From Thiotrichales bacterium (GTDB lineage Bacteria; Pseudomonadota; Gammaproteobacteria; Beggiatoales; Beggiatoaceae), in assembly GCA_016744475.1 (NCBI GenBank), contig JADGEH010000015.1, forward strand, positions 1 to 64,000: DNA of 64,000 nt, written 5' to 3'. This document shows positions 13,001-34,060 of the stretch, in pieces. Every line of letters begins with the position of its first letter. Within the stretch, counting starts at the first letter, position 1. The notes beneath the pieces were generated by a model that was given only the letters and a program-made list of their open reading frames with translations, was not told the DNA's origin and did no database searches. Position numbers and translations under genes: made by a program.

Positions 13001-14362
13001 ATGACCCAACAAGCTGATTCTAATGTTTTTTATGCTCAAGGCTGGAAAACAGATTACCTCCATGCTGAATATGGTGAAGGGATTTATCTTTATGATCATC
13101 AAGGCCAGCAGTATTTGGATGCGATTGGAGGTACGCACTGCATTACAATTGGTTATGGGGTGGATGAAATTGCCCAAGCAATGGTAGAGCAAGCTAATAA
13201 AGTATCCTTTACCCACAAAGTAAAATTTACCAGTGATGCGCAAGAAGAGTTAGCCACATTGATTGCGGATATGGCACCTGATGAGCTTCGGCATGTTTTA
13301 TTTGTGACAGGTGGATCAACGGCTAATGAAATGGCGATGCAATTAGCTCATTATTACCATATTGCTCGAGGCAAACCCAGTAAATACCGTGTCATTGGAC
13401 GTTGGCATAGTTATCATGGACGCACAACAGCCACCCTTTCCATGTCTGGCAGTTTGTTCGCTCGACGTAGTGATATGTTGCACTATCAACATGATTTCCC
13501 TCATATCCAAGCGCCGCATTGCTATCAATGTCCTTATCAGCATGTAAATCCAGAATGTGAATTAACCTGTGCCACTGAATTAGCCAGAACCATCGAACAG
13601 GAAGGTGCCGATACGATTTCCGCCTTCATTGCCGAACCCATTGTCGGTGGAGCCGGTAGTGCAATTACGCCCCCTCCTGGATATTATGAAAAAATACGTG
13701 AAATTTGTGACACTTACGATATTTTATTCATCGCAGAAGAAGTCATCACTGGATTTGGGCGTACAGGAAAAAACTTTGGCATCCAGCACTGGGATGTATC
13801 GCCGGATTTAATCACTTCAGCCAAAGGTTTAAGTAGTGGTTATGCCCCAATGGGCTGTGTCATTTTACGTGAAAATGTGGCAGAAACATTTTTTGCCAGT
13901 CAACGCAAAGGTGTTCCCACTTTTGTCACCTATTCAGGGCATCCCATCAGTTGTGCCGCAGCCCTAGCAGTACAAAAATATATACAGCAAAATCAGCTTA
14001 TTGAGCAATGTCAGCAACGTGGTGACTACTTAAAACAAGCTTTAAGTCAATTAGCCTATAGTCAAGAGCTGATGGGGGATGTACGGGGTAAAGGCTTGTT
14101 ATTAGGTGTGGAATTTGTGCAAAACAAAGGCACCCACCAGCCTTTGCCACGTCAACAACAATTTACTGAAACTTTAGTTAAAACAGCCTTTGACAATGGT
14201 TTGATCTTGCGTGGTCGCCCAGGTACGGGCACAAGCCTCGACGGAGATCATATTTTGTTGTCCCCTCCCTTTGTGATTTCTGAAACAGAATGTGATGAAT
14301 TAGTTGAACGATTAGCCAGCAGCATCAAACAAACCTGCAAGCTAACGGGTCTTTCCTCTTAA
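13001..14362 (+). CDS. Class III PLP-dependent aminotransferase
   Basis: 453 residues, fold type I, omega-aminotransferase family. Landmarks are FVTGGSTANEMAMQLA (cofactor phosphate site), YHGRTTATLSMSG, FIAEPIVGGAG, AEEVITGFGRTG and SAKGLSSGYAPMG, where the lysine forms the Schiff base. The usual Asp that contacts the PLP ring nitrogen (normally ADEV) is Glu here. A Cys cluster (HCYQCPYQHVNPECELTC) sits in the middle and could bind metal or be structural. No strong ribosome site precedes the ATG. It is the first of three co-directional genes with 46-bp and 91-bp gaps leading into the FAAL-PKS-C synthase. In that context it may make or consume an amine for the product, which is inference. Confidence 0.85.
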   Translation: MTQQADSNVFYAQGWKTDYLHAEYGEGIYLYDHQGQQYLDAIGGTHCITIGYGVDEIAQAMVEQANKVSFTHKVKFTSDAQEELATLIADMAPDELRHVLFVTGGSTANEMAMQLAHYYHIARGKPSKYRVIGRWHSYHGRTTATLSMSGSLFARRSDMLHYQHDFPHIQAPHCYQCPYQHVNPECELTCATELARTIEQEGADTISAFIAEPIVGGAGSAITPPPGYYEKIREICDTYDILFIAEEVITGFGRTGKNFGIQHWDVSPDLITSAKGLSSGYAPMGCVILRENVAETFFASQRKGVPTFVTYSGHPISCAAALAVQKYIQQNQLIEQCQQRGDYLKQALSQLAYSQELMGDVRGKGLLLGVEFVQNKGTHQPLPRQQQFTETLVKTAFDNGLILRGRPGTGTSLDGDHILLSPPFVISETECDELVERLASSIKQTCKLTGLSS

Positions 14363-14408
14363 ACTAAGCACCATTCAAGTATTCCTTCCCCCTGACTGAG
14401 AAATAACT

Positions 14409-16445
14409 ATGTTAATTAATAGCATTGCATTAATAGCTATTCTATTTTATGGCTACCTAGAACTAAGAAAAACTAAGCACTTACAAATGCGAGATGAGCT
14501 TCAGCAAAAAACCGCGCCCGATACTGCAATGTCTCAACGTATGAAAGGTTTATTTAAGGATGTAGAACAAAAAAGCCAAGCTCAGCAGACATCCCAGTTT
14601 CAAAAAGACACGCAACGAAACTTTCTATTGTCTATTGTGTCTCTCTTGTTGACGGGTTTAGCACAACTATTCCCCGTACTTTACCCTCTGAATATTTTAG
14701 CGGCTATTTTATTAATTTATGCCAGTCGTATTATTCATATTAATGCTTTTAGAGTATTAAAACGGGGTAAGATCAATGTCAATGCATTAATGACGATAAC
14801 TTTAACGACTTTATTATTAACACAGCAATTTTTTATTGCCAGTGTCATATTTATTGTCATCGGTGTGGCCTTTAGCATTACAGATCGTATTGCTTATAAG
14901 ACTAAACAACAATTCACCCGTATTTTTGATCAACATCCTGACTATGTATCGGTTTTAAAGGAAGGCGAAGAAGTCAAAATGGCTTTTGATGAGTTGCAAG
15001 TAGATGATAGAGTCATTGTTCATGCGGGAGAAATGATCCCCGCAGATGGTGTGATCACAGAAGGTCATGCAACGGTGGATCAACACTTATTAACAGGTGA
15101 GGCTCAACCTATTGAAAAAGCTACGGGAGATGGCGTTTTTTCTTCCACATTAATGCTGTCGGGTAAAATACAATTTAAAGTACAAAAAGCCGGGGCAGAT
15201 ACCACGGTTGCCAAAATCAAAGATGTACTGAAAGAAACTATTGAGTTTAAATCTACAGTACAACTACGCGGTGAAACTTTTTCTGAACGCTTAGTTAAGC
15301 CCATCATTGTTGCTAGTGGCATCGCTTATCCTTTAGTGGGTTTTCCGGGTGCTCTAGCCGTCTTAAATACTCATCCTAAAAATAAAACAATGGTGTTATC
15401 CCCGATCACCATGATGAATTACTTAAATATTGCATCCCAGCAGGGCATTTTAGTTAAAGATGGGCAATCTTTAGAGCTGTTAAGCAAAGTCGATACATTA
15501 GTTTTTGATAAAACGGGAACATTGACGGAAGAACAGCCACATGTGGCTAATATTCATTGCTGTGCAGACTGGGATGAAAATAGGCTGTTAAGTTATGCAG
15601 CCGCAGCAGAATATAAGCAAACCCATCCTTTAGCCAGAGCTATTTTACAAGAAGCTACACAGCGTCAATTAGATATTCCCACCTCTGTCAATAGTGAATG
15701 CCATTTGGGCTATGGTTTAATGGTTGAAATGGATCATCAAGTTTTTCATATTGGTAGTGAGCGTTTCATGCGACAAGAAAATATTGATATTCCTGAAAAT
15801 ATTCAACACCAGCAACAACAAGCACAAGAAGCAGGTTATAGTTTAGTGATGCTGGCAGTGGATAAACAACTGGCTGGGGCTATTGAGTTGCGTCCTACTT
15901 TACGTCCAGGCATTAAAGAGCTGATTCATTCCATAAAACAAAAACACAATATTAAACACACCTATATCATATCGGGTGATCATGAAATACCTACTCAGAA
16001 GTTAGCTCAAGAACTAAACATTGATCATTATTTTGCAGAAGTGTTACCTCAAGATAAAGCCGATAAAATAAAACAGCTTCAAGATCAAGGTTGTTTTGTT
16101 TGTTATGTAGGGGATGGCATTAACGATGCGATTGCTTTAAAAACGGCGCAAGTGTCAGTGTCTATGCAAGGTGCTTCTACTGTAGCGACAGATACCGCGC
16201 AAATTATTTTAATGCATTCTGGGCTTAAGCAGCTTTCTCACTTATTTGATCTCGCCAAAAGCTTTAATAAAAACATGAACATTACTTTTGGAATCTTATT
16301 GCTGCCTTCATTAATTGGTTTAACGGGTGCGTTCTTATTTGGCTTTGATATTGTCAATACTGTGTTTATTAATATGACAGGTCTGGCTTTAGGACTTGGC
16401 AATGCAGTGCGGCCTGTATTTCAATATAAAAATGCCGTGAAATAA
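14409..16445 (+). CDS. P-type ATPase (HAD-IC type) lacking the CPC metal-binding motif
   Basis: 678 residues. The cytoplasmic core is intact: LLTGEAQPIEK (actuator TGE), DKTGTLT with phosphorylated Asp367, KQTHPLARAIL (the HP motif typical of P1B pumps) and VGDGINDAIAL. The layout (three or four helices before the actuator, two between actuator and DKTG, two at the end) is P1B-like. The CPC/SPC motif that should precede the DKTG domain is missing: the stretch GFPGALAVLNTHPKNK and VLSPITMMNYL replaces CPCALGLATP. There is also no N-terminal HMA or Cys-rich domain. The exported substrate is therefore unclear; it could be an altered metal, a metallophore or a lipid. Its place between the aminotransferase and the synthase suggests a role with their product. 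Confidence 0.82.
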   Translation: MLINSIALIAILFYGYLELRKTKHLQMRDELQQKTAPDTAMSQRMKGLFKDVEQKSQAQQTSQFQKDTQRNFLLSIVSLLLTGLAQLFPVLYPLNILAAILLIYASRIIHINAFRVLKRGKINVNALMTITLTTLLLTQQFFIASVIFIVIGVAFSITDRIAYKTKQQFTRIFDQHPDYVSVLKEGEEVKMAFDELQVDDRVIVHAGEMIPADGVITEGHATVDQHLLTGEAQPIEKATGDGVFSSTLMLSGKIQFKVQKAGADTTVAKIKDVLKETIEFKSTVQLRGETFSERLVKPIIVASGIAYPLVGFPGALAVLNTHPKNKTMVLSPITMMNYLNIASQQGILVKDGQSLELLSKVDTLVFDKTGTLTEEQPHVANIHCCADWDENRLLSYAAAAEYKQTHPLARAILQEATQRQLDIPTSVNSECHLGYGLMVEMDHQVFHIGSERFMRQENIDIPENIQHQQQQAQEAGYSLVMLAVDKQLAGAIELRPTLRPGIKELIHSIKQKHNIKHTYIISGDHEIPTQKLAQELNIDHYFAEVLPQDKADKIKQLQDQGCFVCYVGDGINDAIALKTAQVSVSMQGASTVATDTAQIILMHSGLKQLSHLFDLAKSFNKNMNITFGILLLPSLIGLTGAFLFGFDIVNTVFINMTGLALGLGNAVRPVFQYKNAVK

Positions 16446-16536
16446 ACCAAATGTTTTCATCCGTTTTATATCACCTGCGTCAGGTGAGTTCTTTTAATTT
16501 CTCTAATACCCTTTGCAACAAGTCTAATGTCTAATA

Positions 16537-19500
16537 ATGAAACCTAACTTATCTTCTTTTCGTCCTGCCACCCTATTAGAACTGCTTCGTCACCGTGCTC
16601 AACATCAGCCCCAAAAACAGGCTTACTCCTTTTTGGTGGATGGCGAGCATGAGCAGGATCGTCGTACTTATGGTGATTTAGACCGTCAAGCGCGAGTGAT
16701 TGCCGCGCAATTGCAAACTTTATGTGAACCTGGCGACCGTGTTTTGCTGTTGTATCCCGCAGGCGTGGAATACATTGCCGCATTTTTTGGCTGTTTGTAT
16801 GCGGGTGTAGTGGGCATTCCTGCGTATCCCCCACGCCGTAATCGCTCTGATATTCGTTTGCAGGCCATAGCTGGTGATGCAGGCACGCGCATTATCCTGA
16901 CTCAAACTGATATTTTTGTGCATTTGGACAAAAAACTGGAATATGTCCAGGAACTGAAGACTTTTAATTGGATAGCGACCGACCAGCTTGAGCAACATCT
17001 CGCTGATGATTGGCAAGAACCCAATAATATCAAGCCGGATACGTTGGCTTTTTTGCAATACACCTCTGGCTCAACAGGCACACCCAAAGGTGTGATGGTT
17101 ACGCACGGTAATCTGATTCATAACTCTGAACACATGGCAACGGTGTGGTTCTCTGATGCTACACCTGACGATAGCATGGTGACTTGGTTACCGATCTTCC
17201 ATGATATGGGCTTGATTTTTGGTGTGTTACAACCCTTGTATCATGGCTTTCCTTGTTACTTAATGGCTCCGGCTGCCTTTGTGCAACGGCCTTTGCGTTG
17301 GTTGCAAGCGATGTCTAAATACCGTGCCACTCACAGTGGTGCCCCTAATTTCGCCTATGATTTAGCCGTCGAAAAAATCACTCCAAAACAACGTGAACAA
17401 CTGGATTTAAGCCACTGGCGCATGAGCTTAAATGGTGCAGAACCGGTACGCGCTGATACGTTTAAACACTTTTACGAATACTTCAAACACGCAGGCTTAC
17501 GTGAAACTACACTGTGTCATGGCTATGGTTTAGCTGAAGCTACACTGGTTGTTGGTGGAGCACGCATACAAGAATCCACCGAAGCCTATTATGTACACAA
17601 TGCAGAACTGGAAAAACACCATGCCGTTGCTGCCCCCGAAGGCGAGGGCTTATCTTTAATCAGTTGGGGTTTTCCTGCCGAGGATGCGCGTGTTGCCATC
17701 ATAAATCCCGACACTTTATGTGAATGTAAACCCGCAGAAGTGGGAGAAATTTGGGTAAAAAGCCCTAGCGTGGCGATGGGCTATTGGCTGCGCGAAGATG
17801 CCACTAAAGAGACTTTCCAAGCTTATATGACCGACACTCAAGAAGGGCCCTTTTTGCGTACTGGTGATTTAGGTTTTCAGCGTGAAGATGGACACTTGTT
17901 TGTGACCGGACGTTTGAAAGACGTGGTGATCATTCACGGCGGCAATCATTATCCTCAAGACATTGAATATACGGTAGAAAAAGCCCATCCTGATCTACGT
18001 CTCGCAGGCGGTGCGGCGTTTACCGTCACCGTGGCTGGTAAAGAACAATTAGTCATTGCCCAAGAAGTTGAACGCACAGCAATGAAGACCATGAATGCAG
18101 ACGACATCATGGGCGCGATTCGCCAAGCTGTTTCCTTAGAACACGAAGTGCCAGTGTATGCCATTGTGCTGTTGCGCCCTGCTGCCGTGCCAAAAACTTC
18201 CAGCGGCAAAATCCAGCGCCGTGGTTGTCGCCAGGAATATTTAGAGGGGACGCTGAAAGTGATTGCCGAGTGGCGGCAATCTTCCGAACCAACGATGGTT
18301 CGTTCTGATAGGACGGGTCATCGTGACGTATCAGTGAACAAAGCTGAGTTGCAGAACTGGCTGCTAGACACTTTGCAGCAACGTTTGAAAATACCTGCTG
18401 CGCAAATCGATCTGGGTGAGCCGCTGGCGCGTTATGGCTTAGATTCCATGACCGCCGTAGCGATGTCTGGCGATTTGGCGAGCTGGCTAAACCGCCCTCT
18501 GCCTAGCACTTTACTGTACGACTATCCTAGCCTCAACGAATTAATGGACTACATTCTCGGCGAAGAGGTTGATAGTAGGGCAGGCCAGCAGAGCGCCATC
18601 CGCCCAGTGCAAAACAATGAACCCATCGCTATCATCGGCCTAGGTTGTAGCTTCCCCGGTGCAGTCGGTGCACAAGCTTTTTGGGATTTACTCAGCCAAG
18701 GTACAGACGCAATTCGAGAGGTGCCTGAATCACGTTGGTCGCTAGACGAATTTTATGATCCCGATCCCAACAAAGCAGGCAAAATAAGCACGCGCTTTGG
18801 CGGTTTTCTCGAAGATGATCAAGTGTTTGAATTTGATCCGCAGTTCTTTGGAATGGCTCCACGCGAAGCTGAACGTGTAGACCCTCAACAACGCCTGCTG
18901 CTCAATACGACCTGGCAAGCCTTAGAACATGCGGGCATAGCTCCCGACTCCTTGGCGGGCAGCTTTACGGGGGTCTTTATTGGCATCAGCTTGAATGATT
19001 TCACCCGTGTACAAGAACAATATAGCCTTACGCCTGATACCTACACGGGCACAGGCAGCGCTTTTTCCATTGCGGCCAATCGCCTGTCTTACACTTTCGA
19101 TTTTCGCGGCCCAAGTGTTGCTATAGACACCGCGTGCTCTTCTTCCTTAGTGGCTATCCATCAAGCCTGCCAAGCCTTAAAACAGGGCGAAGCCAGTTTA
19201 GCGCTGGCGGGCGGTGTCAATCTCATTCTAACGCCTGATCTCAGCATGACTTTCTCCAAAGCCGGTATGCTCGCTCCCGACGGACGCTGCAAAACCTTCG
19301 ATGCCAGCGCAGATGGCTATGTACGCGGCGAAGGTTGTGGGGTATTGGTGCTCAAACGTTTAAGCGATGCCGAACGCGACAATGATCGCATTCTTGCCGT
19401 GATCAAAGGCTCGGCGGTGAATCAGGACGGGCGCAGCAACGGCTTGACCGCACCGAATGCTTTGTCACAACAAGCTGTACTGCATCAAGCGATGGATAAT

Positions 19501-22500
19501 GCGGGCGTATCGCCTACTGAAATAAACTATATTGAGGCGCACGGCACAGGCACAGCACTGGGCGATCCGATAGAAATGGCGGCTTTGAAGGCGGTATTGG
19601 GCAAGGGAGATACGCCTTGTTGGGTGGGTTCGGTGAAAACCAATATCGGACATCTGGAAGCCGCCGCAGGTGCGGCAGGCGTGATGAAAACTGTGCTGGC
19701 GATGCAACATCAACACATTCCGCCGCATTTGCATCTGCAATCCTTAAATCCGCATATCCATATTGATGACAGTCGTTTGCAAGTACCGACGCAGGCACAA
19801 GTCTGGGAAAAACCCTGCGCGGGCGTGAGTTCTTTTGGCTTTGGCGGAACAAATGCGCATCTGATTCTTGCGCCTTATGAGGATGCAGAGCACCAAGGGC
19901 TACATTCCCATGCCGAGACAGATGCTCTTCAAATACTCACATTATCAGCAAAAAATCTTCAAGCTCTGAATGAGTTGCGCGAAAGCTTTGCGGATTACCT
20001 GGCACAAACCCGCAATACTTGGGCGGACATCGCCTATAGCGCTAACACCGGGCGCAATCATTTTAAATACCGCCAAGTTGTGCTTGCGCCTACCGCCAAT
20101 CTGGCTTCACAAGCATTGGAAAAAGCCCCGCTAAAAGAATGGTCAGCGCCCCCCAAAGTAGCCTTTTTGTTCACTGGACAAGGAGCGCAATATGTGGGCA
20201 TGGGGCGCGAACTGTACGCAACACAACCCGTGTTTAAGCAGGCTTTGGATGAATGTGCCGCGATTCTAAAAACGCATCAAATAGATGTGTTGTCAGTGTT
20301 ATTTGCCGAACAAGACTCACCTGATGCGGCATTGCATCAGACGCGCAATACCCAGCCTGCCATGTTTGCACTGCAATATGCTTTAGCTCAATTGTGGCAA
20401 TCCTGGGGCATCACAGCGGATGCAGTGCTGGGGCACAGCGTCGGACAGTATGCAGCGGCTTGCGTCGCAGGTGTGCTGAGCGTGGAGGAGGGGCTGCGCT
20501 TGATCGCAGCACGCGGGCGTTTGATGCAGGCGTTGCCGCCAGAAGGCGCGATGTTGGCAGTGGCTTGCGACCTGGAGACCTTAACGCCTTGGCTGGCAGG
20601 CAAAGAAGACAACATATCTTTGGCGGCACACAACGGGCCGCAAAGTCTGGTCGTGTCAGGCGACAAAAGCACCTTAGAAGACATTGCAAAACGCTGCGAA
20701 ACCCAAGACATTAAGCATAAATACTTGCAAGTGTCACACGCTTTCCATTCGCCGCTAATGGATGCCATGTTGGATGATTTCCATGCTGTAGCAGCACAGT
20801 GCCACCTGCAAACGCCTCACATGGCATTAGCAGACAATGTGGGTGGCGGCTTGGCGGGAGATGATGTGCTCACGCCTGATTATTGGTGTCGCCATGTTCG
20901 CCAGCCCGTGCAATTTCTTGCCAACATGGACGCTTTGCAGGACATGGGTTGCAATGTTTTCGTGGAAATAGGCCCCCGCCCTGTGTTGCTGGGAATGGGG
21001 CAGCAATGCTTAAGTGCCGTGAATCATTTATGGCTGCCCAGTCTGCAAGAAGATCAGCCGCAAGCGCTATTGACTGCGGTGGCCCAGCTTTATCAACGGG
21101 GGGTAGACATTAATTGGACAGCGTTTTACGCGACGCTAAAAGCGGCGCGTGTCGATCTACCGACTTATCCGCTGCAAACCCAGCGCTGCTGGCCTCAGCC
21201 ACAAGCGCCGCGTGTGTCCTCAGCGCGTCACACACATCCGATTTTAGGTGCTCGTTTAGAGTCGCCAGCATTACGCAATACGTCCGTGTTCCAAGCGGAC
21301 ATCAGCGCAGAACATCCCGCCTTTTTAGTCGATCATCAAGTCTTTGACACCGTAGTGCTACCTGGAGCCGCGTATCTGGATTTGGCTTTGAGCGCCGTCC
21401 GTGCAACAACACCAACCGATGTACTGACTTTGCAAAATGTGATGTTCAAACAAGCTTTGGTGTTGCCGGACAATACGGCTGTAAAAGTGCAAACCTTATT
21501 ATCGAGTGATGGAACGTTTGAAATTTACAGCCAAGACGACGCAGGCGAGTGGTCATTACATGCACAAGGTGAAATATCCCCTGTAGGGTGGAATAGCGAT
21601 GACGTACTCCACCCGCCCATGCCACCCATCCAAGCTACTTTTGCTGAAGTAGAACATCTGGATGTTGCGCAACACTATCAACAATTCCGTACCCGCCATA
21701 TTGATTATGGAGAGGCATTTCAAGGCATCCAAAGCCTGCAATGCCTAGGTTCGCAAGTCTGGGCAGCGCTACGCTTGCCTCAATCTGACAATGGACAATA
21801 CGCACTGCATCCTGTTTTGCTCGATGCGGCTTTTCAAGCGATAGCTGCCGCTTTCCCAAAAGCGTGCGCAGAAGCCACTTATATCCCTGTTGGCCTAGAA
21901 AACTTGTACTGGCAAGCACCACTCACCGACCCAGTGTATTGCTTGATTGATGTGGATGACCGTGAGCAACCCCGCTTGTTTTATGCAGATGTGTATTTAT
22001 GGGATCAGCAAGGTCAGCCGCTCGCCGCTTTACAAACACTTAAATTGCTATCAGTTCGTGCAGATGTCCTGGGCACGCAAGAGTCGCTCAATGATTGCTT
22101 GTATCAAGTGGAATGGCAGCCGCAGGCGAGTAGAGGCTTGCCACCGCAATTTATCCCCGATGCCAGACTGCTTCGCGATCAAGTCATCGAACATGCCACG
22201 CACACCGTACAGACCAGCACCTTACAATTTAAGCAATCACCCTTGCTGGACATAGAACAGAACAGCAAAGCATCCTCTGATGATGCGCTTATCAGTTTGA
22301 ATGAATTGGATTTTTATAAAGAATTACTGCCTCAAATTGAGCAAGCCAGCGGTGCTTTTGTGCGCTTGGCTTTAGAAAAACTCGGTTGGCAGCCCAGTGC
22401 AGGCGAATGGATAGTGGTCGAAAACTTGCGCCAGCAATTGGGCGTGATCGATGCGCATCAACGTTTGTTTGCACGTTTGCTGGACATACTGGCAGAAGAT

Positions 22501-25500
22501 GGCGTGCTGCGTGCGATGCCAGCGGGTTATGAAGTGCTCAGCCCTCTCAGCAGCGAGCAAGACCCCGTGGCTTTGTTAGATGAGTTACAAGGCCGCTATA
22601 CGCCAGCTCATGCGCAATTGACGCTATTATCTCGTTGTGGTGCCGAACTGGCAGAGGTCTTAAGCGGCACAACCGATCCGTTGCAATTACTGTTTCCCGA
22701 AGGCGATCTGGATACGGCGACACATCTTTACCGCAACACGCCGTTTGCGCTGTATTTAAATGATCTGGCACAAAGTACGGTGCGCAACATTGTGACGAAG
22801 TTGCCTGCGGGTCGTCTGTTGCGCGTGTTGGAGATCGGTGCGGGCACGGGCGGCACGACAGCGCATTTGTTGCCCGTGCTGCCTGCACAACAATGCCATT
22901 ACGTATTCACCGACCTTTCTACAAGCTTCTTCACCCAGGCGAAGGCGCATTTTAAAGACTATTCTTTTGTTGAATATCAGCGCTTGAATATTGAACAAAA
23001 CCCTGAATCACAAGGTTTTATTGCACATGATTTTGACTTGATTGTTGCCGCTAATGTGATTCACGCCACGGCTGATTTAGAACAAAGCCTGCAACATATT
23101 CAGGAATTGTTGCGCCCTGGCGGTCTGTTATTGCTGTGGGAAGTCACTTCAAAGCAACGTTGGCTGGATTTAATTTTTGGTCTCACCGACGGTTGGTGGC
23201 GCTTTACTGATACAGATTTACGCCCGAATTATGCGCTGTTATCCCCTGTGCAATGGCAAAAACTGCTGATGCAACAAGGTTTTTTTAACACGGCCTTATT
23301 ATCTCCCGATCACTTAAGCCCAGGCTTAAATGTGCAGCAAACCCTCATTACTGCACGAATGGATGATCAAATGCTGCAAGCCGTTGATGAATGTTGGTTG
23401 CTGTTTGCGGATTCTTGCGGCATTGCGGCACAAGTGGCACAGCTTTTACGCCAAGCAGGGGGGCGTGCGGTGTTGGTGAAATCTGCCTCCACATATCAGC
23501 GACTCAGCCCCGATGAATTTCAAATCCAAGTCGAACAAGCAGAAGATTATCAACGTTTATTCAATGAGTGTGATGCAGATTTGACCCACGTTTTGCACTT
23601 GTGGAGCTTATTAAATGCACCTGCCCACACATTGGATGAAGCCGGTTTACAAGCCGCTTTGTATAACGGTTGCTTAAGCAGTGTGTATCTATTGCAAGCC
23701 TTATTGCAGCAACAACGCACGCCAAACGTATGGTTGATAACACAACAAGCGCGTGCTGAAGGTGTGGCGCAATCCGCGTTATGGGGTATGGGGCAAGTGG
23801 TGCCCTTGGAACATCCTGAATTTAATGCCAAGCGCCTCGATTTAACGGCAGAGCAAACAACGCAACACAGCGCATCCCGTTTATTTGAAGAAGTGCTGAC
23901 CAACACCGACACAGAACAACAAATCGCCTTAAATAATCGAGGGCGTTTTGTGGCTCGTTTGCAGCCATATCCCGCTGAAAAACCACCTATTCCACGTTTT
24001 AACTCAAAAGCGACCTATTTAATCACAGGCGGTCTGGGTGCTTTAGGCTTATTGTTGGCGGAATGGATGAGCCAACATGGGGCGCGTTATTTCGTGCTGA
24101 CAGGCCGTCGTGGCGCAACACCTGAAGCCCAACCACAGCTTGACGCACTGGCACAAGCAGGCGTGCGGATTAAAGTGATGCAAGCTGATGTGACTCGCTT
24201 AGAACACATGCAAGCCGTGTTTAATGATTTAGCAGACTTACCGCCATTGCGCGGTGTCATCCACAGTGCAGGCGTTTTAGCCGACGGCGTTATCGCCAGC
24301 CAAGATGCCCAGCGTTTCCAACAAGTGCTGGCACCGAAAGTACAAGGCGGCTGGCATTTGCATCAACTTACGCAAGACAAAGAACTGGACTTCTTCTGGT
24401 TATTCTCCTCTGCTGCCGCATTATTGGGTTCTCAAGCCCAAGCCAATCATGCGGCGGCTAATGCATTTTTAGACGGTCTAGCCGCGTATCGCCGCAGCAT
24501 GGGCTTGCCCGGTTTGAGCATCAACTGGGGCGTGTGGAGTGACATCGGTGCAGGAAGCACAGCAGAAAGTCTGATGGCGGGGCGCGGCATTGGCAGTATC
24601 ACACCCGCGCAAGGGGTGCGTTTACTGCCTACGCTATTTGCCGCTCAAACGGCACAAATCGGCGTTGTGCCACTAGATTGGGCGACGTTTATGAAACACG
24701 AAGGACGCGCCAATCCTTTTTTCAATGCTTTTGCAATACAGCAAGAAGAAACGGATACCGAAACGTGGTTAGACAAGCTAAACAATTTGGAGGCGAAAAA
24801 CCAGCTTGAAGCCTTGCAACATGACTTACAACAGCAAGTTGTACAAGTATTAGCATTGGATGCACATTCCACCATAGACATTGAACAAAGCTTTCTCAGT
24901 TTAGGCATGGATTCTTTAACTTCTATGGAGTTTCGCAACCATTTGCAGGCTCATTTGCACTGTCACCTACCTACCACAGTGATTTTTGAACAAGCCAATA
25001 TCGAGCGTTTAGCTGTCTTTTTACAAGATAAGGTCTTGCAGACACAAAACACTGCTGAGCCTTTACCACTTAAAACCTTACAACAACATCTACATCCCGC
25101 TCCCAAAGGTGCTCAACTACCGCTGGCTTTTTCACAATTACGTTTTTGGTTGAATTATCAACGTCACCCCAATGATTGTATATATAACACTTTTAATAGT
25201 TTCAAAATAACCGGGGAATTGTCGATAGAACGCTTGCAACAAGCATTCAATGTTTTGATCAAACGTCATGCCGTGTTACGCACTCGGTTTCAAGCAGAAC
25301 ATGATAGAACCTTACAAATCATTGAAGCCGACAAGAAAATCCCCCTCGTTGTAGAATCACTGGAACACTTGTCCAGCACAGAAAAAGACAATGTTCTAAA
25401 GCAACACACTCAATATGAAAATACTACGCCATTTGATTTAAGTGCAGGTATTGTATTGCGTTTACACCTGTTCTGCCTGTCAGAACAAGAGCATATGCTG

Positions 25501-26439
25501 ACTGTATCAGGGCATCACATTGTATTGGATATGTGGTCTTTAATGCGTTTGCTACAGGAATTGAATCAAACCTATACTCAATTAATCAATGAAAAACCGC
25601 TCGCTGAACACTCACCTACAGTACAACTAGCCGATGTAGCTTATTGGCAACATCAATCATTAAATACCGAAAAACGCGCTATTCGCCAAGCCTATTGGCA
25701 AACCCTGCTGCACAATGAACCCGCACTCTTAACGCTACCGACTGATTATCCTCGCCTTGAAAAGCCTGATCAGCAAGTCAACACACATTGGCAAATACTG
25801 CCATCGACTATGCTCAAAGACTTACAGGCACTAGCACGTCAGCAACAGAGCACATTATTTAATGTATTGCTCACCACCTATGCCACGCTTTTATGGCGTT
25901 ATAGCGGGCAACAAGATTTTATGATGGGATGCCCTGTATCGAATCGTGATGGTGTTCAATTAGATGAAATTATGGGGTGCCTTGCCACGGTATTGTTAAT
26001 ACGTGTGCATATCAAACCACACGAAGCTTTTGCAGATTTTCTACAAAGAATGCAAACCCAAGTTGTTTCTGCATTGGAACATCAAGATGTGCCTTTTGAG
26101 CAATTGCAACCTGAACGTGATCTCAATGCGCAGCCGTTATTTGGTACCTTTATGAATTTTTTATCTCAGTTGGTACAGACTAAACATCACAGTCACCAGG
26201 CGCTTAACATTACACTGCATTCTCTTGGCGGTTCTGTCATGCGAGTAGATTTTGGTTTAGGGATTCGGCAAGAAAAAGAGGCTTTGCACTTTGGCTGGCG
26301 TTATAAACAGGCTTTATTCAAAGCGGATACGATTGAACAGAGAGCCGCATATTTTCAACAAGTCTTACAACAGGTCTTGAATGATGTGGAAATATCCTTA
26401 GCGGATTTATCCTCAAAGGAAGAGACACTCCCCGCTTAA
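16537..26439 (+). CDS. FAAL-PKS-condensation megasynthase
   Basis: 3300 residues. Domains in order: FAAL loading domain (1-590; YTSGSTGTPKGVMVTH), ACP1 (605-685; Ser637 in LDSM), KS (705-1130; Cys867 in DTACSSS, EAHGTGT, KTNIGH), AT (1206-1510; Ser1301 in GHSVG, HAFHSP indicating malonyl), DH (1566-1860; His1600, Asp1763), C-methyltransferase (2075-2260; LEIGAGTGGTT), KR (2490-2670; ITGGLGALG), ACP2 (2755-2835; Ser2793) and a terminal condensation domain (2855-3290; HH2993-2994 and Asp2998 in HHIVLDMWS). It would activate a free fatty acid as acyl-AMP, extend it by one malonyl unit, alpha-methylate it, reduce and dehydrate it, then condense it with an amine or alcohol. No A, T, TE or reductase domain follows. 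The KR catalytic Tyr is His2638 (SQAQANHAAANAF), so reduction is uncertain. A weak hairpin (CACCTG-CGT-CAGGTG) lies in the 91-bp leader. Confidence 0.93.
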   Translation: MKPNLSSFRPATLLELLRHRAQHQPQKQAYSFLVDGEHEQDRRTYGDLDRQARVIAAQLQTLCEPGDRVLLLYPAGVEYIAAFFGCLYAGVVGIPAYPPRRNRSDIRLQAIAGDAGTRIILTQTDIFVHLDKKLEYVQELKTFNWIATDQLEQHLADDWQEPNNIKPDTLAFLQYTSGSTGTPKGVMVTHGNLIHNSEHMATVWFSDATPDDSMVTWLPIFHDMGLIFGVLQPLYHGFPCYLMAPAAFVQRPLRWLQAMSKYRATHSGAPNFAYDLAVEKITPKQREQLDLSHWRMSLNGAEPVRADTFKHFYEYFKHAGLRETTLCHGYGLAEATLVVGGARIQESTEAYYVHNAELEKHHAVAAPEGEGLSLISWGFPAEDARVAIINPDTLCECKPAEVGEIWVKSPSVAMGYWLREDATKETFQAYMTDTQEGPFLRTGDLGFQREDGHLFVTGRLKDVVIIHGGNHYPQDIEYTVEKAHPDLRLAGGAAFTVTVAGKEQLVIAQEVERTAMKTMNADDIMGAIRQAVSLEHEVPVYAIVLLRPAAVPKTSSGKIQRRGCRQEYLEGTLKVIAEWRQSSEPTMVRSDRTGHRDVSVNKAELQNWLLDTLQQRLKIPAAQIDLGEPLARYGLDSMTAVAMSGDLASWLNRPLPSTLLYDYPSLNELMDYILGEEVDSRAGQQSAIRPVQNNEPIAIIGLGCSFPGAVGAQAFWDLLSQGTDAIREVPESRWSLDEFYDPDPNKAGKISTRFGGFLEDDQVFEFDPQFFGMAPREAERVDPQQRLLLNTTWQALEHAGIAPDSLAGSFTGVFIGISLNDFTRVQEQYSLTPDTYTGTGSAFSIAANRLSYTFDFRGPSVAIDTACSSSLVAIHQACQALKQGEASLALAGGVNLILTPDLSMTFSKAGMLAPDGRCKTFDASADGYVRGEGCGVLVLKRLSDAERDNDRILAVIKGSAVNQDGRSNGLTAPNALSQQAVLHQAMDNAGVSPTEINYIEAHGTGTALGDPIEMAALKAVLGKGDTPCWVGSVKTNIGHLEAAAGAAGVMKTVLAMQHQHIPPHLHLQSLNPHIHIDDSRLQVPTQAQVWEKPCAGVSSFGFGGTNAHLILAPYEDAEHQGLHSHAETDALQILTLSAKNLQALNELRESFADYLAQTRNTWADIAYSANTGRNHFKYRQVVLAPTANLASQALEKAPLKEWSAPPKVAFLFTGQGAQYVGMGRELYATQPVFKQALDECAAILKTHQIDVLSVLFAEQDSPDAALHQTRNTQPAMFALQYALAQLWQSWGITADAVLGHSVGQYAAACVAGVLSVEEGLRLIAARGRLMQALPPEGAMLAVACDLETLTPWLAGKEDNISLAAHNGPQSLVVSGDKSTLEDIAKRCETQDIKHKYLQVSHAFHSPLMDAMLDDFHAVAAQCHLQTPHMALADNVGGGLAGDDVLTPDYWCRHVRQPVQFLANMDALQDMGCNVFVEIGPRPVLLGMGQQCLSAVNHLWLPSLQEDQPQALLTAVAQLYQRGVDINWTAFYATLKAARVDLPTYPLQTQRCWPQPQAPRVSSARHTHPILGARLESPALRNTSVFQADISAEHPAFLVDHQVFDTVVLPGAAYLDLALSAVRATTPTDVLTLQNVMFKQALVLPDNTAVKVQTLLSSDGTFEIYSQDDAGEWSLHAQGEISPVGWNSDDVLHPPMPPIQATFAEVEHLDVAQHYQQFRTRHIDYGEAFQGIQSLQCLGSQVWAALRLPQSDNGQYALHPVLLDAAFQAIAAAFPKACAEATYIPVGLENLYWQAPLTDPVYCLIDVDDREQPRLFYADVYLWDQQGQPLAALQTLKLLSVRADVLGTQESLNDCLYQVEWQPQASRGLPPQFIPDARLLRDQVIEHATHTVQTSTLQFKQSPLLDIEQNSKASSDDALISLNELDFYKELLPQIEQASGAFVRLALEKLGWQPSAGEWIVVENLRQQLGVIDAHQRLFARLLDILAEDGVLRAMPAGYEVLSPLSSEQDPVALLDELQGRYTPAHAQLTLLSRCGAELAEVLSGTTDPLQLLFPEGDLDTATHLYRNTPFALYLNDLAQSTVRNIVTKLPAGRLLRVLEIGAGTGGTTAHLLPVLPAQQCHYVFTDLSTSFFTQAKAHFKDYSFVEYQRLNIEQNPESQGFIAHDFDLIVAANVIHATADLEQSLQHIQELLRPGGLLLLWEVTSKQRWLDLIFGLTDGWWRFTDTDLRPNYALLSPVQWQKLLMQQGFFNTALLSPDHLSPGLNVQQTLITARMDDQMLQAVDECWLLFADSCGIAAQVAQLLRQAGGRAVLVKSASTYQRLSPDEFQIQVEQAEDYQRLFNECDADLTHVLHLWSLLNAPAHTLDEAGLQAALYNGCLSSVYLLQALLQQQRTPNVWLITQQARAEGVAQSALWGMGQVVPLEHPEFNAKRLDLTAEQTTQHSASRLFEEVLTNTDTEQQIALNNRGRFVARLQPYPAEKPPIPRFNSKATYLITGGLGALGLLLAEWMSQHGARYFVLTGRRGATPEAQPQLDALAQAGVRIKVMQADVTRLEHMQAVFNDLADLPPLRGVIHSAGVLADGVIASQDAQRFQQVLAPKVQGGWHLHQLTQDKELDFFWLFSSAAALLGSQAQANHAAANAFLDGLAAYRRSMGLPGLSINWGVWSDIGAGSTAESLMAGRGIGSITPAQGVRLLPTLFAAQTAQIGVVPLDWATFMKHEGRANPFFNAFAIQQEETDTETWLDKLNNLEAKNQLEALQHDLQQQVVQVLALDAHSTIDIEQSFLSLGMDSLTSMEFRNHLQAHLHCHLPTTVIFEQANIERLAVFLQDKVLQTQNTAEPLPLKTLQQHLHPAPKGAQLPLAFSQLRFWLNYQRHPNDCIYNTFNSFKITGELSIERLQQAFNVLIKRHAVLRTRFQAEHDRTLQIIEADKKIPLVVESLEHLSSTEKDNVLKQHTQYENTTPFDLSAGIVLRLHLFCLSEQEHMLTVSGHHIVLDMWSLMRLLQELNQTYTQLINEKPLAEHSPTVQLADVAYWQHQSLNTEKRAIRQAYWQTLLHNEPALLTLPTDYPRLEKPDQQVNTHWQILPSTMLKDLQALARQQQSTLFNVLLTTYATLLWRYSGQQDFMMGCPVSNRDGVQLDEIMGCLATVLLIRVHIKPHEAFADFLQRMQTQVVSALEHQDVPFEQLQPERDLNAQPLFGTFMNFLSQLVQTKHHSHQALNITLHSLGGSVMRVDFGLGIRQEKEALHFGWRYKQALFKADTIEQRAAYFQQVLQQVLNDVEISLADLSSKEETLPA

Positions 26440-28796: not shown

Positions 28797-29015
28797 TCAC
28801 TCCACTGTGATGCTATGAATGTGTAGATGCGATTTAGGTTCAGCGTCATATAAAACAATAACTTCACCTGTTTGATGCTCAACCCCAAAATCCATAAGAT
28901 TATCGACGAGGCTATTGATCAGAGCTTCATCGGTTAGAGTCGGGTCTTTCCAAAACTCAGCGGCCTCAGGATCGTTATCTATTAGCCACTGGCGAGCCTG
29001 ATCCCCGTTAATCAT
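28797..29015 (-). CDS. Hypothetical early phage protein
   Basis: 72 residues starting MINGDQARQWLIDNDPEAA, acidic throughout and ending HLHIHSITVE. I chose the ATG at 29015, which overlaps the end of the upstream gene, over a GTG five codons earlier. No family is recognised. It sits three bases before the next gene in the early operon. Confidence 0.65.
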   Translation of the reverse strand: MINGDQARQWLIDNDPEAAEFWKDPTLTDEALINSLVDNLMDFGVEHQTGEVIVLYDAEPKSHLHIHSITVE

Positions 29016-29655
29016 TGCTCTGTTCCACACTCAAGCTACTAAAATTCAAAGAAATCTGCTGCATTTCCTTCTCATCAGATTCCACCCGCTGATACACCCG
29101 CACCTGCAATTTAGACGATTGCACAAACAGCGTGTCCTTGATGTGCTGAGACATTGTTTGCAGTATCGCGTGCTCAAACTGAGTACTCGCTATCTCTTTT
29201 AATTTGTTAATACTGGCACGCCCTTTATCATCTAAGGCGGTGGCTTTTTGTAGCAACTGAGTCGTATCTTGATCGCGCTGTCCAGTGGCCTGCCACTGCT
29301 CGAATAATTCACGCGCAAAGGCGAGGTCATCACCACTAATGGTCTCGCTATCTTGTTGTTGAAGCAGCACCTTTATCGTGCTTTGACTGTCAGTGATGGA
29401 CGGAATAATGCTGTCCGTCGCTTCGTGCCCTCGCAACTGAGTCGCCCATTGATGGTGCGCTTTTAGGCGGTTTAAAACGGAGGCTTTTAGCTCGCGCAGA
29501 CGTTGCTGCTCATGCTTGAATTCTTGCGCAATGTCTGCGCATAGTTCATCGCGTGCCTGCATAATTTGAGCGTGGACGTGTTGCTGCGTAGCAGGTGGTT
29601 GTGGTGCGCGCAGCGCCGTATCTTTTCCTTTGCTAAATAAGTGAAAAATGTTCAT
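29008..29655 (-). CDS. Hypothetical early phage coiled-coil protein
   Basis: 215 residues, strongly helical, with Gln- and Glu-rich heptads (DIAQEFKHEQQRLRELKASV; DDKGRASINKLKEIASTQF). The N-terminus MNIFHLFSKGKDT is basic. No enzymatic motif is seen. It overlaps both neighbours by a few codons, as is usual in this operon. Function unknown. Confidence 0.7.
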   Translation of the reverse strand: MNIFHLFSKGKDTALRAPQPPATQQHVHAQIMQARDELCADIAQEFKHEQQRLRELKASVLNRLKAHHQWATQLRGHEATDSIIPSITDSQSTIKVLLQQQDSETISGDDLAFARELFEQWQATGQRDQDTTQLLQKATALDDKGRASINKLKEIASTQFEHAILQTMSQHIKDTLFVQSSKLQVRVYQRVESDEKEMQQISLNFSSLSVEQSND

Positions 29656-30010
29656 TTTTGTATTCCTTGTATAGTGCTTTAATCCGCTGAGGGGAAAACC
29701 CCATGTCTAACAAACCCCGAACAGTGATCCAGGTGTCCTGATATGCCGCCTGCATGTTTACCGACGTGTCGTAAAACAAACGGGTATTTAACCGCTCTCT
29801 CGACAGGGCGGCATTCCAGGCCATTAAGCGCACTCGGCGCAATCGTGCCCAGCGATGCCGCTTGAGCCAGCCCGTTTTCCAGCCGTGTGCATAAAACGCA
29901 TCGGCACCGACAGATAAAACGGGGTTTTCATTCAGTTTTTTGCCCATTTCGTGGGCTACTAATCCAGACATGTGTCCGAGGTTAAATGACTGTTGCTCTG
30001 AGCTATCCAT
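29633..30010 (-). CDS. Hypothetical early phage protein
   Basis: 125 residues. An acidic N-terminus (MDSSEQQSFNLGHMSG) is followed by a very basic patch (GWLKRHRWARLRRVRLMAW) and a helical C-terminus (LLDMGFSPQRIKALYKEYKN). The basic patch suggests nucleic-acid contact, but no family is recognised. It lies between gemA and the coiled-coil gene and overlaps the latter by 23 bp. Confidence 0.68.
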   Translation of the reverse strand: MDSSEQQSFNLGHMSGLVAHEMGKKLNENPVLSVGADAFYAHGWKTGWLKRHRWARLRRVRLMAWNAALSRERLNTRLFYDTSVNMQAAYQDTWITVRGLLDMGFSPQRIKALYKEYKNEHFSLI

Positions 30011-30012
30011 GA

Positions 30013-30456
30013 TTAAACCTGCTGCTGCGACCAGCGTCGCAACCCTGTGATGACTTGCGTGGCCTGATAGCGGGTGAGAAACCGCACGTTATCGACACCT
30101 GTTGTGCGCTTTGAAAATGCCTGTAATCGCACATCATCCAAGCCTTCATGCCAGCCCTGTTGAGTGGCTAACTGCTCAATAGTGCTCAATTGTTGAGTGG
30201 TGGGGCGCGTGGCGGTTTGCCCGCCCTTGGCTTTCGCTTGAGGGACATAAATATTTGCCCCCAATCTTTTTAAGTGCCAACAAAAGGTGCTTAATTCGCC
30301 GTCCGTCATCTCACTGCGCGATGACTTGCCGCAAAAATCCTTCTGGCGTTCGAGGCGAAAATCCTTGTCCCACCCCAATTGTCGAGAGGCTTTCTCTATC
30401 AAGCCCATGAGTAAGTGCCGATCAGATTTAGTCTTTTCAGATTTAGTCTTTTTCAT
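30013..30456 (-). CDS. gemA: GemA-like regulatory protein (DUF1018)
   Basis: 147 residues. The first half (DRHLLMGLIEKASRQLGWD ... MTDGELSTFCWHLKRLGA) and the ending (LTRYQATQVITGLRRWSQQ) match the GemA/gp16 family of Mu-like phages, which affects host supercoiling and gene expression through gyrase. The ATG at 30456 was chosen because GGAG precedes it by seven bases and it overlaps the upstream stop; a longer reading has no ribosome site. A tandem KTKSEKTKSD repeat begins the protein. Confidence 0.8.
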   Translation of the reverse strand: MKKTKSEKTKSDRHLLMGLIEKASRQLGWDKDFRLERQKDFCGKSSRSEMTDGELSTFCWHLKRLGANIYVPQAKAKGGQTATRPTTQQLSTIEQLATQQGWHEGLDDVRLQAFSKRTTGVDNVRFLTRYQATQVITGLRRWSQQQV

Positions 30457-30670
30457 TGCGTTGCTCCAAAATTCGGCAGCCCGTGCAATCGTCGCGGGGA
30501 CACTGCATACAGACTGCATTGGCATCATTGTGTTGCGCGATTAACTCAACTAACGCAGTGTATTGCCGTTGTTTAGTCGGAGAGGGATAACGCCCGTTGC
30601 GCAATAACGAGGCGGTGGTCTTAGACACACCTAAGACCGCGCCAATAGCCTTTAGACTGAGGTTAGTCAC
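30443..30670 (-). CDS. Small HTH protein with a four-cysteine motif
   Basis: 75 residues. The N-terminal half is a helix-turn-helix: SLKAIGAVLGVSKTTASLLR. The C-terminal half has CMQCPRDDCTGC (C-x2-C-x4-C-x2-C), a pattern that could bind zinc or an Fe-S cluster. It begins inside the end of the MuB gene and ends inside the gemA start. It could be a small phage regulator; the ligand is undetermined. Confidence 0.72.
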   Translation of the reverse strand: MTNLSLKAIGAVLGVSKTTASLLRNGRYPSPTKQRQYTALVELIAQHNDANAVCMQCPRDDCTGCRILEQRNEKD

Positions 30671-31379
30671 GACTATTCGCCATCCACAGTATGGCGGTAT
30701 CCAGGATGGCTTTGTTTAGCGTGGCAGCCCCATCAATCTTCATCAGGCGCAAACACTCGTCACGCAGTTCAACCCCTTCACCCCAATTCCCTTTCCGGCA
30801 ACCCTTCCAAAACTGTTCTGCCAGTGGTACCAGTTGTTTTGCTTCGCCAAAGGCCGGCTTGAAAATATTCACGTAAGTGTCGGCTTTATCGAGCGCCTTT
30901 AGTTTTAGTCGCTTAGCACCAATACGCCGCCCCAATTGCAGCAGCAGCGCCTTGGTGCGAGCCGCAGTAAATTGCTGGCTATATAACTCAGTCCCCACCA
31001 GAATCACCGCCCAGTGGCATTCGTCAGACAGATAACGCAGCAGTTCCAGCCCCGCCCATTTCAGCTTATTAGCTTCGTCCACTACCAAGACCCGTCGCGT
31101 CTTTTCTGTGTTCATCAGAGCATCCAGAAAATATCGCGTACTGCCTTCAACCCCAGCCCCTTTAGCAATAGCCCGTAACAATTGCGCCTGAGTCATATTG
31201 TGGTAACACGCCACGCGCACTGCGCCCAGCGTCTCAACTAATGCGAACCCAGCGGCGGTTTTACCCGTCCCTGTACCGCCCGTGATTTCCCCAATCGCCT
31301 GCTGATTACAATCACGTACCTGCTCAGCCAGACTGAGCGCATCCCGCACCACTTTAGTTTTTTGAAACGTAAGGCTCAT
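30663..31379 (-). CDS. MuB-like transposition target-selection ATPase
   Basis: 238 residues, AAA+ ATPase. Walker A is GEITGGTGTGKTAAGF, Walker B is RRVLVVDEANKLKWAG, and the sensor-like VILVGTELYSQQF follows. Together with MuA it activates the transposase and brings target DNA. The short C-terminus and absence of the long Mu N-terminal HTH part are usual for this wider family. The gene has GGGAGAGG before its ATG and overlaps the preceding small gene. Confidence 0.9.
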   Translation of the reverse strand: MSLTFQKTKVVRDALSLAEQVRDCNQQAIGEITGGTGTGKTAAGFALVETLGAVRVACYHNMTQAQLLRAIAKGAGVEGSTRYFLDALMNTEKTRRVLVVDEANKLKWAGLELLRYLSDECHWAVILVGTELYSQQFTAARTKALLLQLGRRIGAKRLKLKALDKADTYVNIFKPAFGEAKQLVPLAEQFWKGCRKGNWGEGVELRDECLRLMKIDGAATLNKAILDTAILWMANSRD

Positions 31380-31753
31380 TGTTCCTCTCCCAATACGTGC
31401 AAAGCCGCGCTGGCAAACGCCTGCGCGGTGGCGTGGTCATAAGCGGCGGACAAAAAATGTCGCAACAGACGGATGTCAGCCGTGTCGGTGATGGCATCAA
31501 TCAGCGCTTTAAGCTGCGCTTTATTACCACTTTCCATCAGTCCATCGTGGAGCACCATAGCAGCGCTTTCACCAGGCTCACTCATCTGCTGAGGCTGGAC
31601 ATTAGACTGAAATCCATTCATCAGAACCGAAGAAAATGGACGGGGAGTACATTGAAACGGGTTGAACACCCTTTCACTGTGATGCGAGCCATTCTTATCC
31701 GTACTTTGATTAGTATTCGTATCTGAATCGCGTTTCTTCTTAACATTACTCAT
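31376..31753 (-). CDS. Hypothetical phage protein between the MuA and MuB genes
   Basis: 125 residues. A polar Ser/Asn-rich N-terminus (MSNVKKKRDSDTNTNQSTDK) looks disordered. The C-terminal 70 residues are helical (KAQLKALIDAITDTADIRLL; FASAALHVLGEEQ). AGGAGA precedes the ATG. Coupled by ATGA overlap to the MuB gene, so a transposition accessory role is possible. No known family. Confidence 0.72.
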   Translation of the reverse strand: MSNVKKKRDSDTNTNQSTDKNGSHHSERVFNPFQCTPRPFSSVLMNGFQSNVQPQQMSEPGESAAMVLHDGLMESGNKAQLKALIDAITDTADIRLLRHFLSAAYDHATAQAFASAALHVLGEEQ

Positions 31754-31764
31754 TGTGCTATCTC

Positions 31765-33855: not shown

Positions 33856-33865
33856 CGCGGCCTCC

Positions 33866-34060
33866 TTACGCCGCGTTGCGTCGTATATAATATTCGCGCC
33901 AATAGACATAATCGCAGGCGCGATAGCCGTCGCGCTTCACCGCCTGTGTGAAGTCCTCCACATTGACGCGCAGTACTGTTTCAGCCCATTCACGTAACGA
34001 GCGGCGAATGTAGTGATACGTGACCGGATAGTGGTCCGCATCCAAGCGTGTGGCGCTCAT
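33866..34060 (-). CDS. Small hypothetical early phage protein
   Basis: 64 residues, basic, aromatic-rich (YPVTYHYIRRSLREWAETV; ACDYVYWREYYIRRNAA). It starts four bases inside the preceding gene (ATGA) and ends ten bases before the transposase ATG. No family recognised. Confidence 0.65.
   Translation of the reverse strand: MSATRLDADHYPVTYHYIRRSLREWAETVLRVNVEDFTQAVKRDGYRACDYVYWREYYIRRNAA

Follow-up and report, generated by a model that had tools for sequence, protein, structure and literature searches.

Three neighbouring genes in a genome of the Beggiatoaceae, coding for an aminotransferase, a P-type ATPase without the CPC motif and a large lipid-loading synthase, raise the question whether they form one biosynthetic unit and, if so, what this unit would make and move. 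The host is a relative of the giant sulfur bacteria, from a family that includes contigs labelled Thiomargarita and Thioploca. The window, i.e. the whole stretch of 64,000 nucleotides analysed here, lies on contig C147 (70,024 bp), part of a genome of 5.34 Mb. ORF calls reproduced exactly the three co-directional genes, their coordinates and the gaps of 46 bp (transaminase-ATPase) and 91 bp (ATPase-synthase) given in the initial annotation, all on the plus strand, and the identities proposed there for the three proteins are backed by Pfam and NCBIfam matches:

13001..14362, plus strand: class-III (omega-type) PLP aminotransferase, 453 aa (Pfam, E 1.4e-90)
14409..16445, plus strand: CPC-less P1B-like P-type ATPase of the HPK clade, 678 aa (Pfam/NCBIfam, tree)
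16537..26439, plus strand: FAAL-ACP-KS-AT-DH-MT-KR-ACP-C synthase, 3300 aa (Pfam/NCBIfam)

Upstream of the trio lies a divergent gene for a UbiA-type prenyltransferase. Downstream, on the opposite strand, an ORF of 454 aa reads as a replicative helicase (dnaB-like), followed by Mu-like prophage genes (DUF3164, GemA, AAA, Mu transposase C-terminal; window positions 29008-33909). Rfam and tRNA scans gave no match, and a plasmid search returned just short patches at 69-72%. As for the limits of a putative operon, no sigma-70 or terminator signal rose above chance level. The gap that precedes the synthase gene contains a terminator-like hairpin (16471-16487), and a single transcript is therefore not assured.

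The chemistry to be expected depends on the synthase, for which the following domains were identified:

16570..18267, plus strand: FAAL domain, predicted to load a free fatty acid (Pfam, NCBIfam)
18358..18555, plus strand: first acyl carrier domain (Pfam PP-binding)
18619..19872, plus strand: ketosynthase, DTACSSS intact
20164..21081, plus strand: acyltransferase of the malonyl type, GHSVG and HAFH
21235..22065, plus strand: dehydratase domain, His/Asp kept, Asp in place of the motif Gly
22828..23130, plus strand: C-methyltransferase domain, SAM motif LEIGAGTG
24010..24543, plus strand: ketoreductase domain, His2638 (24448-24450) in place of the catalytic Tyr
24802..25053, plus strand: second acyl carrier domain (Pfam PP-binding)
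25117..26412, plus strand: C-terminal condensation domain, HHIVLDM at 25513-25533, no A-PCP thereafter

The succession of FAAL, ACP and KS, seen with both Pfam and NCBIfam, is that of a FAAL-loaded type I PKS. The best single-domain matches of the AMP ligase are fatty-acid--AMP ligase models of NCBIfam (PRK05850, 456 bits; FadD32, 407 bits), these and the other FAAL-model scores all being below the models' own cut-offs. The ketosynthase Cys, the AT motifs, the SAM motif of the MT domain, the His/Asp pair of the DH domain and the HHxxxD of the C domain are all intact. The KR domain reads QANHAAAN, with His at the site where all related synthases of the Beggiatoaceae that can be aligned there have Tyr. 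The FAAL-PKS-C make-up given by the initial annotation was confirmed, and the KR defect, absent from it, is to be added. The KR is probably inactive, and the exchange of its catalytic Tyr for His makes a beta-keto product probable; by its domains, the synthase would then probably release an alpha-methyl-beta-keto acyl chain. An Aminotran_3 domain, as in the AMT of iturin/mycosubtilin-type synthases, is not among the Pfam matches listed for the window synthase.

Where the chain goes would be decided at the C domain. Its motif is HHxxxDM instead of HHxxxDG, the Gly being absent and the first His kept. In carrier-dependent C domains, the Gly of HHxxxDG dominates. A departure from HHxxxDG is likewise seen in amide-forming C domains whose acceptors are free amines, as reported for fatty acid amides of gut bacteria; OaaC, which uses free small amines, is one of them (PMC13142362). 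The DHxxxDS-like motif of the tested free-amine C domains is not found in the window C domain, for which HHIVLDM is a partial fit to this group; together with the terminal position of the domain, it is circumstantial evidence for a free amine as acceptor. The nearest solved C domains are of the ordinary chain-elongating type (Txo1, E 6.8e-57), which would suit a C domain feeding an A-PCP module encoded elsewhere in the genome; the product would be a lipopeptide and the window would hold its starter part only. Hybrid lipopeptide starters of such type normally run on into A-PCP. Here, however, the protein ends at the C domain with no A-PCP gene adjoining, as judged from ORF calls and translations, the proteins of the two paralogous loci G000:C55 and G003:C30 likewise end at C, and no docking domain is among the Pfam matches listed at the synthase C terminus, so that we consider a split lipopeptide line unlikely.

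The first of these paralogues is a second FAAL-PKS of the window genome (L059:9584-17794, G000:C55) with the iturin-like order FAAL-ACP-KS-AT-ACP-AMT-C, a protein that stops at C and carries no A-PCP. In genome G039, one synthase (L064:6137-15775) has two tandem FAAL-like domains ahead of the first KS; a KS-AT-DH-MT-KR-C protein on another contig (L065:723-8771) may continue it.

The transaminase has omega-amine transaminases as its best PDB matches. At orthologue level (66-75% identity) it occurs in Beggiatoaceae only, and the enzyme or a close paralogue is present in just five of the 43 family genomes. A strict peptide-pattern scan of 84,980 species genomes detected none outside Beggiatoaceae, and a profile search of 369 genomes of the class gave only two distant matches. 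In the congeneric species G003, the transaminase (75% identity) belongs to a co-directional run of six genes separated by 14-58 bp: FAAL-ACP-KS, AT-MT-ACP-AMT-C, two O-methyltransferases, transaminase and ThDP enzyme. It follows the synthase of this run at a distance of 2.3 kb downstream. The initial annotation would have taken the grouping as accidental if relatives of the synthase did not occur next to similar aminotransferases or ATPases; this condition was checked and did not refute the grouping, since transaminase and FAAL-PKS-C synthase are linked at the G003 locus and transaminase and ATPase indirectly in two other genera (see below). No HPK ATPase is among the matches listed for G003. 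Between the window synthase and that of G003, the C domains show no more than a distant similarity (25% identity, 61.6 bits), and a common acceptor is therefore not assured. Two relatives of the ThDP enzyme in the window genome and G003 (C118, C159) were considered as cluster parts and discarded, as their surroundings differ.

With a KR lacking its Tyr, a beta-keto chain should be at hand, and the transaminase could act in trans on this carrier-bound chain to give a beta-amino (alpha-methyl) acyl chain that the C domain passes on. At the loci G000:C55 and G003:C30, the slot that the discrete enzyme would fill, from the last ACP to C, is occupied precisely by an Aminotran_3 domain. Yet the transaminase shares only 21-24% identity (40-59 bits) with the AMT domains of the paralogous synthases, and it occurs without any PKS in view at the G012 and G022 loci. 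The G003 synthase, moreover, carries an in-cis AMT alongside the discrete transaminase gene, which points to amine supply and argues against beta-amination in trans. We hold such amination, which with the split lipopeptide line is the main rival of our reading, to be improbable. The proposal of the initial annotation that the aminotransferase provides the amine for the C domain remains the best reading, strengthened by the PDB matches and the G003 linkage and weakened by the single occurrence of the trio.

Outside the window, the transaminase and the ATPase are connected indirectly, because contigs end between the two: in two other genera, relatives of each adjoin the same sulfotransferase. 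The transaminase gene overlaps the sulfotransferase gene in G022, and in G012 and G011 it is adjoined by remnants of that same sulfotransferase. A single cluster made up of the contig pieces of G012 and G022 was rejected, since the contig ends share no overlap. In G011, the transaminase, the ATPase and the sulfotransferase are present as decayed copies interrupted by stops and frame breaks (L057:8089-9370, L180:9025-10034), and the cluster seems to be degenerating there.

Of the three-gene system put forward initially, the pairs are partly seen again elsewhere. The trio as such was detected in no other genome searched, which makes it a lineage-specific combination and not a conserved system. 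In the literature searched (most subscription papers lie outside it), we found neither a P-type ATPase together with FAAL, PKS and aminotransferase nor a Beggiatoa with PKS and P-type ATPase, and neither the gene combination nor an HPK pump clade tied to sulfotransferases or biosynthetic genes was found described. That the three genes are neighbours by chance would agree with the restriction of the trio to the window genome, among those searched, and with the hairpin that divides ATPase from synthase. The small same-strand gaps and the recurrence, in other genera, of pairwise links of each gene to such clusters speak against this, and we regard chance as quite improbable; the three genes are probably one biosynthetic unit and their grouping is probably not accidental.

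What the ATPase contributes is less obvious. It matches Pfam E1-E2_ATPase (5e-32) and the heavy-metal P-type model TIGR01525 (404.7 bits, cut-off 346), contains the P1B core motifs DKTGT, TGE and GDGIND as well as the HP signature THPLA, and has CopA as its closest solved relative by sequence (E 6e-61). The CPC motif is absent: when aligned without gaps to a CPC-type ATPase from the window genome, the protein has PKN (323-325) at this position, no equivalent metal ligand of TM4 was found, and Pfam detects no HMA domain. The site in question is encoded as follows:

15372..15380, plus strand: codons of His322-Pro323-Lys324, the TM4 site that corresponds to CPC in metal-transporting P1B pumps (alignment)

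A maximum-likelihood tree built from 58 CPC-less ATPases puts the window protein into a supported clade of 13 rows (97/99), nested in one of 14 rows (100/99). H322, P323 and K324 are invariant across 12 aligned rows of this clade, HPK is present in 14 of 14 members, and most members are 44-58% identical to the window ATPase. Outside Beggiatoaceae, a search of 369 genomes from the class and 398 from the phylum found relatives, none of which has HPK; by these searches, the HPK clade is confined to the family. An AlphaFold model of the ATPase, built from 12 sequences, had a mean pLDDT of 65, with the TM3-TM4 stretch below 50, and was for this reason not used for fold search or site reading. Genomes of the Beggiatoaceae hold up to 30 P-type ATPase matches each.

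Sulfotransferases lie within 6 kb at 6 of 14 HPK-clade loci and at none of 44 loci of other CPC-less ATPases (P 7e-5), a count for which the queries were taken from HPK-clade loci, the clade having been noticed on part of the same neighbourhood data and its loci being related by descent. These genes belong to three Pfam families (L068:9825-10511, L069:5343-6798, L070:10817-11554, L077:14433-15116, L060:8070-8948, L066:4858-9861). An independent profile search of 43 genomes returned 41 Sulfotransfer_2 matches in total, five of them at four HPK-clade loci, the distance to the ATPase being 105 bp in one case and 172 bp in another. Non-clade ATPases have two matches within about 4 kb, both weak and fragmentary (G030:C363, G028:C176). 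Genes for PKS, NRPS or thioester reductases are near 6 of 14 HPK-clade loci compared with 1 of 44 outside, and near 5 of 13 with the window left out (P ~0.002). G012 has the row thioester reductase, ATPase (48%), ThDP enzyme and sulfotransferase, the last gene being the intact copy of the sulfotransferase whose remnants adjoin the transaminase; G008 has hydrolase, thioester reductase and sulfotransferase, and in G011 an ATPase fragment adjoins a sulfotransferase fragment. In the window itself, the six sulfotransferase query sequences matched no ORF.

Around CPC-less ATPases of other clades (loci L078-L116), SAM methyltransferases are often nearby (10 of 96 neighbouring proteins). In G031, the gene after one of these ATPases (L088:4225-9866) codes for a fusion of FAAL, ACP and class I/II aminotransferase (1113 aa); ATPase, FAAL and aminotransferase are neighbours here as well, in an independently composed set.

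Membership of the P1B family and the analogy to the mycobacterial isonitrile lipopeptide genes (PMC9147137) would allow for a metal pump, with a metal-binding lipid as product. The clade, however, has PKN/HPK in place of CPC throughout, the ATPase is without an HMA domain, and no metal-linked family is among the 25 commonest families of the 90 proteins neighbouring clade ATPases; nor is there a metal-handling gene, as expected of a metallophore cluster, among the identified neighbours of the window or clade loci. A metal pump thus appears very unlikely, and the metallophore analogy with mycobacterial ctp genes drawn in the initial annotation is weak for a pump without metal-site cysteines. One may conjecture that the lysines now present at the metal site would favour an anionic cargo. 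The HPK clade as a whole might then be a new functional class of P-type ATPases for the export or flipping of lipids, lipopeptides or comparable metabolites that are anionic and often sulfated, with these lysines binding the anion and the window pump serving a FAAL-PKS amide; we put this forward as a speculative and rather doubtful extension.

Our main reading, to which we assign a probability of about 0.45, is a lineage-specific lipid-amide cluster in which the transaminase would supply a free amine, the C domain would release the acyl chain onto it and the ATPase would move the product. The FAAL would adenylate a free fatty acid and load it onto the first ACP, KS and malonyl from the AT would provide one extension, and the MT one alpha-methyl group; because the KR lacks its Tyr, the beta-keto group would probably be kept and the DH would stay idle. 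The discrete omega-type transaminase may turn a carbonyl precursor into a small free amine, to which the terminal C domain would transfer the chain from the second ACP, releasing the amide, and the HPK-clade ATPase may carry this product, or an anionic derivative of it, across the inner membrane by export or flipping. Catalytic steps, amine, product and cargo are what we infer from the genes, their domain order and catalytic residues, and from the observed links of the transaminase with FAAL-PKS-C synthases and of the ATPase clade with biosynthetic and sulfotransferase genes. The single occurrence of the trio, the motif HHxxxDM instead of DHxxxDS and the hairpin at 16471-16487 count against a lipid amide.

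We know of no P-type ATPase dedicated to secondary-metabolite export. If the pump clade does move natural products, its members would be the first of this kind, and part of the abundant CPC-less pumps in genomes of the Beggiatoaceae would be given a role. The cluster is also a compact, testable case of a PKS chain that would be released onto a free amine from a partner transaminase.

Among known systems, the mycobacterial isonitrile lipopeptide region with ctpB also has lipid-loading biosynthetic genes near a P-type ATPase; CtpB has been described with a copper/silver binding motif (PMC9147137), which the window ATPase lacks. Among solved structures, the P1B ATPases CopA and ZntA come nearest to the window pump in sequence and share its HP signature and size, but the pump differs in having HPK/PKN for CPC and no HMA domain, and the clade genes lie by sulfotransferases and assembly-line enzymes, not by metal genes. 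The OaaA/OaaACP/OaaC fatty acid amide clusters of gut bacteria correspond to the proposed route, with an ACP-activated fatty acid that the C domain joins to a free amine, and the Oaa C motif, like that of the window, departs from HHxxxDG; the Oaa proteins are free-standing, without PKS extension and with a DHxxxDS motif, and the accessible part of the source describes no dedicated transaminase or P-type ATPase, unlike the window (PMC13142362). Starters of iturin/mycosubtilin and of the puwainaphycins (PMC4219810) share the order FAAL-ACP-KS-AT-...-ACP-...-C; the iturin-type AMT domain is also present in the paralogues G000:C55 and G003:C30, whereas the window synthase has DH-MT-KR in its place and no NRPS after C. 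The parts are thus familiar from iturin/puwainaphycin-type starters, fatty acid amide C domains and P1B-like pumps; the locus would be a new variant form of a FAAL-PKS lipid-amide cluster, and its ATPase clade is the more surprising part.
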